From Halopiger xanaduensis SH-6 (GTDB taxonomy: Archaea > Halobacteriota > Halobacteria > Halobacteriales > Natrialbaceae): a stretch of DNA of 64,000 bases. This document shows, one piece after another, positions 8,497-9,030 of the stretch. A program made the translations under genes and the position numbers. The DNA lies in the NCBI RefSeq assembly GCF_000217715.1, contig NC_015666.1, positions 384,270-448,269 on the forward strand, written 5' to 3'. The stretch's first letter is position 1, and the number at the start of each line of letters is the position of its first letter. The notes under the pieces are model-generated. The model searched no databases, was not told where the DNA came from, and worked only from the letters and a program-made list of their open reading frames with translations.

Positions 8497-8689
8497 ACAC
8501 CGGACCAGTCGACTCGGCTTTTTCTACTGTTCGGTCGCGGAGAGCCATGTGTTCCCATCACAGAGCCGGTTCCCCAGTGGACGCTGGACGGCATCACCGC
8601 CTCGAGAAGGGTGACTCGAGAGACCAGAGAGAACGCTTCGAAGCCGAAAATCGGGCTGTCGCTCACGGATTTGTTCGCGACAGAAGTAG

Positions 8690-8710
8690 TGGGTTGGGGC
8701 AGATTTGAAC
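8690..8710 (-). repeat. Partial copy of tRNA-Val 3' end (att-like direct repeat)
   Basis: These 21 bases are identical to 8824-8844, the 3' end of tRNA-Val including the discriminator base and half of the T arm, and lie 134 bp away in the same orientation. Such partial copies are what a site-specific integration at a tRNA gene leaves behind. No integrase gene is present between the copies. Confidence 0.75.
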
Positions 8711-8759
8711 CACGCCGAGACGTGCTCGCATCGCTGCGCGCGTCTCGTCTGGTTCAAAT
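8703..8759. repeat. Long inverted repeat between tRNA-Val copies
   Basis: Arms ATTTGAACCA (8703-8712) and TGGTTCAAAT (8750-8759) are perfect complements, and inner arms CGAGACG (8716-8722) and CGTCTCG (8741-8747) extend the stem. It includes part of the copied tRNA end. Confidence 0.8.
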
Positions 8760-8773
8760 TACCCGTACAATTG

Positions 8774-8820
8774 TTGACGACACGAACTCCTCGCTCCGCT
8801 CGTCAATATTGTGTCGTCAA
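8774..8820. repeat. Second inverted repeat next to tRNA-Val
   Basis: TTGACGACAC (8774-8783) and GTGTCGTCAA (8811-8820) are perfect 10-bp arms around a 27-nt spacer, ending 3 bp from the tRNA-Val 3' end. It could act as transcription terminator or recombinase-binding core. Confidence 0.7.
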
Positions 8821-8823
8821 AAA

Positions 8824-8898
8824 TGGGTTGGGGCAGATTTGAACTGCCGGCCTCCTCCATGTCAAGGAGGTGTCATAACCAGACTAGACCACCAACCC
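8824..8898 (-). tRNA. tRNA-Val (GAC)
   Basis: On the minus strand a full cloverleaf can be drawn: acceptor GGGTTGG pairing with CCAACCC, anticodon stem CCTCC/GGAGG around loop TTGACAT giving anticodon GAC, and T arm GGCAG-TTCAAAT-CTGCC. CCA is not encoded. Length 75 nt. Its 3' end is duplicated at 8690-8710. Confidence 0.95.
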
Positions 8899-9030
8899 GC
8901 CTGGTTTCGCTTGCACCGTGGCGCGTCGCCACGTCGTCTGCACTCAATCGTTGCCGGCCACCGTAATTGAAGGTTTCGAATCAGTCGCCGTACGGGAGTC
9001 GGCCCCACGCAACCCGCGCCTCCGACACGC

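Follow-up and report, generated by a model that had tools for sequence, protein, structure and literature searches.

Why does the 3' end of the tRNA-Val(GAC) gene of Halopiger xanaduensis SH-6 occur a second time just behind the gene? We analysed a stretch of 64,000 nt around this locus, referred to as the window. The tRNA gene, identified by ARAGORN and Rfam, lies on the minus strand at 8824..8898, with its 3' end at 8824. The 21-mer TGGGTTGGGGCAGATTTGAAC is found at 8824-8844, within the tRNA, and at 8690-8710, on the downstream side of the gene. The two copies start 134 nt apart and are separated by 113 bp, and the exact repeat of the tRNA-Val 3' end reported in the first-pass annotation was thus confirmed. 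It is the sole 21-mer repeated within 1 kb in the 64-kb window. A chance repeat was ruled out, as the expectation for a given 21-mer within 520 nt is only about 1e-10.

All features of the locus were assigned to the minus strand and follow, in the direction of the tRNA, the order tRNA 3' end, TTTTT, hairpin H1, spacer, inverted arm, loop, second tRNA end and a further H1-type hairpin. The first repeat copy (core C1, 8824..8844) extends from the T-loop to the tRNA 3' end (G|TTCAAATCTGCCCCAACCCA). The T-run TTTTT, located directly 3' of the tRNA, merges into H1 (8774..8823), the stem of which (8774-8820) consists of 10 perfect base pairs between TTGACGACAC (8774-8783) and GTGTCGTCAA (8811-8820). 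Next to the spacer CAATTGTACGGGTA (8760..8773), where relatives have a recurring ATTGTTACGG-like motif, lies the inverted arm C2 (ATTTGAA, 8753..8759), the reverse complement of the T-loop TTCAAAT. The hairpin loop (8710..8752) belongs to class B (CCAGACGAGACG...CGTCTCGGCGTGG; the class letters are our own) and has an unpaired G near its right foot. The second tRNA 3'-end copy (core C3, 8690..8710) starts exactly at the T-loop, G|TTCAAAT, extends to the discriminator and ends the unit. An inverted repeat of 10 bp, ATTTGAACCA (8703-8712) with TGGTTCAAAT (8750-8759), overlaps the copied end; this repeat and the perfect one in H1 had both been described correctly at first pass. The adjoining hairpin CTACTTCTGTCGCGAACAAATCCGTGAGCGACAG (8656..8689) is of the type that starts other units, and is probably the head of a second, lost unit. 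Rfam 15, applied at the gathering threshold to the whole window, matched only LSU, SSU, 5S and tRNA, leaving the unit without a family match. The rRNA genes are archaeal, in line with a haloarchaeal window, and the BLAST neighbours point to the family Natrialbaceae. An open frame spans the tRNA and the unit (8611-8970), and similar frames may be annotated as haloarchaeal hypothetical proteins.

Judging from sequence comparison, the stretch 8690-8844 is one unit of a large haloarchaeal family of approximately 100-150-bp tRNA-anchored hairpin cassettes, which share the plan tRNA 3' end, T-run, hairpin, inverted T-loop arm, class-specific hairpin loop and G|TTCRANN copy. In the genome of H. xanaduensis (G000), 17 of 43 tRNA genes have a copy of their own 3' end within 520 nt downstream; the upstream side and a reversed control each gave 1 of 43. 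The corresponding values for its congener (G001) are 18, 1 and 1 of 43; one prediction per genome was skipped in these tallies, and a few of the Asp copies represent a neighbouring tRNA-Asp gene. A stricter script detected 15 units behind 10 of the 43 tRNAs of H. xanaduensis. BLAST searches of both genomes with parts of the units gave matches in tRNA-gene loci, except for L017, which lies behind a displaced tRNA-Trp end. A MITE dispersed anywhere in the genome was ruled out by this confinement.

We scanned a wider set of genomes with sequence patterns. The pattern GAACNAGN{15,45}GTNGTTCRAAT was present in 160 of 242 Halobacteria genomes (reversed control, single matches in two genomes), and the class A loop GAATCAGGGAGN{5,35}CGACCGTGGTTC, fixed at its ends and variable in length and sequence at its tip, was present in 134 of the 242 (control, 0), related genomes not being independent samples. 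A longer class A pattern was searched in 84,980 bacterial and archaeal species and yielded 72 records, all titled archaea and nearly all haloarchaea. The one non-haloarchaeal title is a metagenome genome, 'Euryarchaeota archaeon' (two records); the record 'Actinarchaeum halophilum' is placed by taxonomy as Halocatena halophila, class Halobacteria. A same-strand tRNA gene was located 33-233 nt upstream of 68 of 74 class A matches, representing 23 tRNA species, and no match was inverted. Five of the others have too little upstream sequence to tell, and one (L436) lies behind a displaced tRNA-Trp end. The 18-nt copy was identical to its own tRNA in 53 of the 68 units, with nine bases preset by the pattern. 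Tandem arrays contain up to four units. Many units come from loci chosen by unit patterns, and prevalence was taken only from the two Halopiger genomes and from a survey of Val(GAC) loci given below; loci L215-L334, obtained with a looser pattern for which chance matches are expected, are outside the unit tallies.

The first-pass annotation had interpreted the repeat as an integration scar, in other words what is left when a classical integrated virus or plasmid is lost or suffers an internal deletion. A direct repeat of the tRNA 3' end does flank the site, starting at the T-loop and including the tRNA 3' end; these tRNAs are indeed targets of integrase elements, and at L093 a 1.2-kb segment with a gene lies between two copies. 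That no integrase is left was also correct: none of the 12 Phage_integrase matches (PF00589) of the genome is inside the window, and no integrase or remnant was present in the 113 bp between the repeats. However, the recurrence of units largely refutes the scar reading. A unit was found in 35 of 53 Natrialbaceae Val(GAC) loci (54 given), with no element inside, and scars predict neither recurrence with conserved loop ends behind at least 23 tRNA species nor tandem arrays of up to four; size and layout are also uniform across many tRNAs. The repeats of real elements start further upstream (tRNA positions 40-53) and have no snap-back, whereas most unit copies start at 54/55; one row with unit-like spacing starts at position 52. 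At tRNA-Val(CAC), for example, we found two elements with an integrase, one of 3.1 kb in G002 and one of 6.0 kb in G009, as well as more element-sized repeats in G111 and G157. The element repeats at this tRNA take in the T-stem (GGCAG|TTC...), begin upstream of the T-loop and differ in this from the unit copy, with no adjoining snap-back. In 2.9 million viral contigs, the class A and H1 patterns had no match, and no relevant phage record was found. We consider a scar very improbable. The first-pass annotation is probably right that recombination takes place at the 3' end of the tRNA, and both filled and empty sites were observed, but the reading as a remnant of an integrative element, whether scar or vestige, is not supported.

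A viral origin of the units was also rejected: a class C-like pattern matched nine viral contigs, none with a hairpin or tRNA context, and class A and H1 matched none. Phage and plasmid searches gave no carrier of the units.

Several arrangements near integrated elements were observed in addition. An integrative element of approximately 16 kb is located at tRNA-Trp of H. xanaduensis, outside the window (G000:C3:631726-647728; L066 and L067; integrase at L066:11649-12701), and has displaced the older hairpin unit L017 from the tRNA. A similar arrangement is found at L436 (Natrarchaeobius chitinivorans), where the unit adjoins an apparent integrase C-terminus. At displaced tRNA-Val ends (L093/L116, near 1198 nt behind tRNA-Val; L388; L389), approximately 70-105 bp with hairpins lie exactly between GGCAG and TTCAAATC, and the GCAG|TGAG junction in two of the three suggests a microhomology deletion. 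A gene for a 236-aa protein, endonuclease/exonuclease/phosphatase-like by eye, lies between tRNA-Val and the distal copy in G003 (L116:791-1501) and is the only candidate cargo seen. Two haloarchaeal megaplasmid records, filed as plasmids (L019 and L020; 828 and 987 kb; Natronorubrum bangense and Natrinema thermotolerans), contain tRNA-Val sequence, which in L019 is a tRNA-Val(CAC) with a unit. At L365 (G185:C1:1471935-1472462), a class A hairpin of 50 bp is repeated eleven times in tandem, with no tRNA gene in the 2-kb stretch.

We evaluated whether the inverted arm follows the T-loop of its own tRNA. Arms were placed by a tRNA-blind rule (NNTYGAA), which kept 159 of 188 distinct units and dropped 29; it superseded permutations on best-match arms, which are biased. 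Position 4 of the copy was complementary to the inverted arm in 144 of the 159 units, against a mean of 97.3 and a maximum of 115 in 2000 permutations. Positions 6 (148; mean 129.4), 9 (103; 62.1), 10 (75; 53.9) and 11 (90; 54.3) also lay above every permutation, and positions 7, 8 and 12 showed no excess over the permutations in these units. Where the tRNA does not contain TTCAAAT, 27 of 39 arms exactly matched their own T-loop and two were ATTTGAA. The T-loop of Val(GAC) in G027 is TTCAATT and the arm AATTGAA; that of Lys in G149 is TTCAACT and the arm AGTTGAA. A tandem terminator, the alternative named in the first-pass annotation, could account for H1 but leaves the tRNA-matched arms unexplained.

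Comparison of homologous tRNA loci indicates that the units are gained, lost, inverted and re-ordered as modules. The units behind Val(TAC) are in the order alpha-beta-gamma in H. xanaduensis and beta-alpha in the congener, with identities of 94.9% for alpha and 85.4% for beta, 58.7 and 62.4% for the cross-pairs, and 62.9% for the last flank. The single Leu(TAG) unit of H. xanaduensis has its counterpart in unit 3 of the congener, counted from the tRNA (44/48 in the H1 part; whole-unit identity only 60.7%, due to a loop-tip insertion), and two more units lie there on the tRNA-proximal side; the 14-nt rule then gave a fourth, 24-nt piece in the congener, and the alignment of the downstream flank is weak. 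At Val(GAC) of G026 (genus g26), the unit in common with G175 (loops 49/51) is separated from the tRNA by an extra unit of class A. Filled and empty sites were observed between the two Halopiger genomes at Arg(GCG), Tyr and Trp, with flank identities of 83.3% at Arg(GCG) and 52.1% over 120 nt at Tyr, where it is good only for the first bases behind the unit; in these two-genome comparisons, precise loss is as likely as precise gain. The His loops of the two genomes are 94.1% identical only when one is inverted, and 57.6% otherwise. Module edges coincide with G|TTC. Loop classes A, B, D and E/F are found with both H1 types at a single tRNA, where the loop class switches between genera.

Such turnover might require no dedicated enzyme: an old palindromic repeat behind tRNA genes could have been reshaped by slippage during replication, by template switches at the hairpin and by gene conversion, both from one 20-bp repeat to the other and between tRNA loci. 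We regard this as unlikely and rank it as the strongest rival, followed by a role as RNA. Perfect tandem copies at G030 L089 and G180 L366 agree with it, direct-repeat deletion gives precise empty sites, the G034/G214 pair resembles an imprecise snap-back deletion, and hairpins are known to produce inverted loops during replication. However, at least 23 tRNA species, in more than one family, are followed by loop classes with conserved ends, and yet the arms are tRNA-specific; conversion would have to swap a 30-60-bp loop through a common arm of approximately 7-10 bp.

We compared the folding of the two strands. With DNA parameters, 123 of 139 distinct loops folded better as the tRNA-sense strand, among them 44 of 44 in class A. 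The mean difference was −2.26 (se 0.17) versus −0.74 (se 0.07) for dinucleotide-shuffled sequences, and −4.64 versus −1.86 with RNA parameters; H1 had no strand bias with DNA parameters (0.03). Purine-purine mismatches in the stems were more frequent than pyrimidine-pyrimidine mismatches (497 versus 77), an extra G on the copy side was the commonest bulge (158 cases), and G-T pairs exceeded A-C pairs on the tRNA-sense strand (106 and 64). One strand seems to be the working form, as RNA or single-stranded DNA; the asymmetry does not choose between them. If the unit were a functional RNA, it would be transcribed as a 3' trailer of the tRNA for processing, termination or regulation, and the arms would pair in the RNA. 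The better-folding tRNA-sense strand, the G-A mismatches, the excess of G-T over A-C pairs, which would also suit an RNA, and the position of class A loops 33-233 nt behind the tRNA are consistent with this. Nevertheless, the T-run directly after the tRNA is expected to end transcription, units are missing behind over half of the tRNA genes in one genome, array sizes range from 0 to 4, the loop class is exchanged between genera at one tRNA, the 20-nt tRNA-end copy is hard to motivate, and no Rfam family matches. An RNA function therefore appears rather improbable to us.

Our best explanation is tentative, a little short of an even chance: a folded strand would undergo site-specific recombination at the T-loop, in the manner of integron attC or CTXphi attP. 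We favor it because the arms follow the tRNA, the modules are edged by G|TTC, filled and empty sites occur and a loop is inverted, and because the fold is strand-specific, class A lies behind a tRNA in 68 of 74 cases with none inverted, and H1 types and loop classes combine freely. The analysis shows where the units lie, that their arms match the tRNA, that modules are gained or lost and re-ordered, and that a loop is inverted; recombination as the mechanism is what we infer. The putative enzyme, of the tyrosine-recombinase type, would act at the T-loop core, and its partner site would be the tRNA-sense strand folded as a hairpin whose stem imitates the T-arm region of the tRNA. Each unit starts behind the tRNA and finishes with a copy of the same tRNA 3' end, and insertion at G|TTCRANN would always leave a whole tRNA. 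As the tRNA 3' end that closes every unit is complete, recombination at G|TTCRANN would restore the tRNA, which would also explain why only tRNA-matching units survive in the tRNA-proximal position. The T-arm would serve as an attI-like anchor, with the newest unit next to the tRNA. Several points weigh against recombination of this kind. The direct repeats of 20 bp could recombine homologously, which would delete or duplicate units and in this way change their order, and hairpin loops can invert when the DNA is replicated. The units contain no genes, neither a recombinase for their movement nor a circular intermediate was seen, and no mobile carrier was found among the viral contigs. The wider proposal, that Halobacteria possess a gene-less integron-like system in which the T-arm of each tRNA gene is the anchor and the mobile sites are folded single-strand hairpins with stems that copy the T-loop and 3' end of that tRNA, so that tRNA genes are class-wide cassette arrays with the tRNA intact, is possible and more doubtful.

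Mobile DNA lands at tRNA genes more often than at any other site. Haloarchaeal tRNA-targeting integrative elements (SNJ2-type and others) resemble the units in using tRNA 3' ends and in leaving filled and empty sites. As described in the available parts of PMC8371274 and PMC7911831, they bear integrases and are kilobases long, with pleolipovirus-type att sites of approximately 13 bp at the tRNA 3' end, and the att sites that we examined have no snap-back. The PATEs/MITEs of Haloquadratum are likewise short and gene-less with palindromes near their ends, but a tie to tRNA genes is not described in the available part of PMC3119063. Repetitive hairpin elements of sponge mitochondria also invade intergenic DNA as repeated hairpins, but belong to another organelle and domain, and tRNA-matched arms are not stated in the accessible part of PMC2800124. 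The accessible main text of a paper on archaeal integrons (PMC9668308) has 0 occurrences of tRNA, haloarchae- and Halobacteri-. We found no description of tRNA-templated hairpin modules in open-access PubMed Central, including the accessible parts of PMC8371274, PMC3402447, PMC3119063, PMC9668308 and PMC7911831. Throughout an archaeal class, mobile-looking hairpin modules templated by the tRNA appear to make up the DNA just behind tRNA genes, and repeats of tRNA ends in haloarchaea should not be taken for scars of proviruses or for borders of integration.

The folded attP of CTXphi has a hairpin stem of two inverted copies that imitate the chromosomal target dif. The inverted arms of the units similarly copy their chromosomal target; the target here is the tRNA T-loop instead of dif, no phage is involved, and the enzyme is putative. 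Integron attC sites have the core GTTRRRY and the inverse core RYYYAAC. The units resemble attC sites and cassettes in their tandem arrangement, the G|TT edge, the imperfect palindrome with conserved ends and a variable tip, the unpaired base near the foot, the single orientation and, in two resolved cases, the anchor-proximal extra units. In contrast, the unit cores are GTTCRAN and its inverse, not the integron consensus GTTRRRY; the anchor is a tRNA gene and the arms change with the tRNA; the units are short and gene-less, except for L093 (1.2 kb, one gene); and no integron integrase was found in the PF00589 search of the H. xanaduensis genome. We keep the units apart from integrons because the core differs and genes are absent. 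If their movement is enzymatic, they would represent a new folded-DNA recombination system outside the known integrons, and would offer a clean test of how the target specificity of single-strand sites evolves, as the same hairpin occurs with dozens of different, matched arms.
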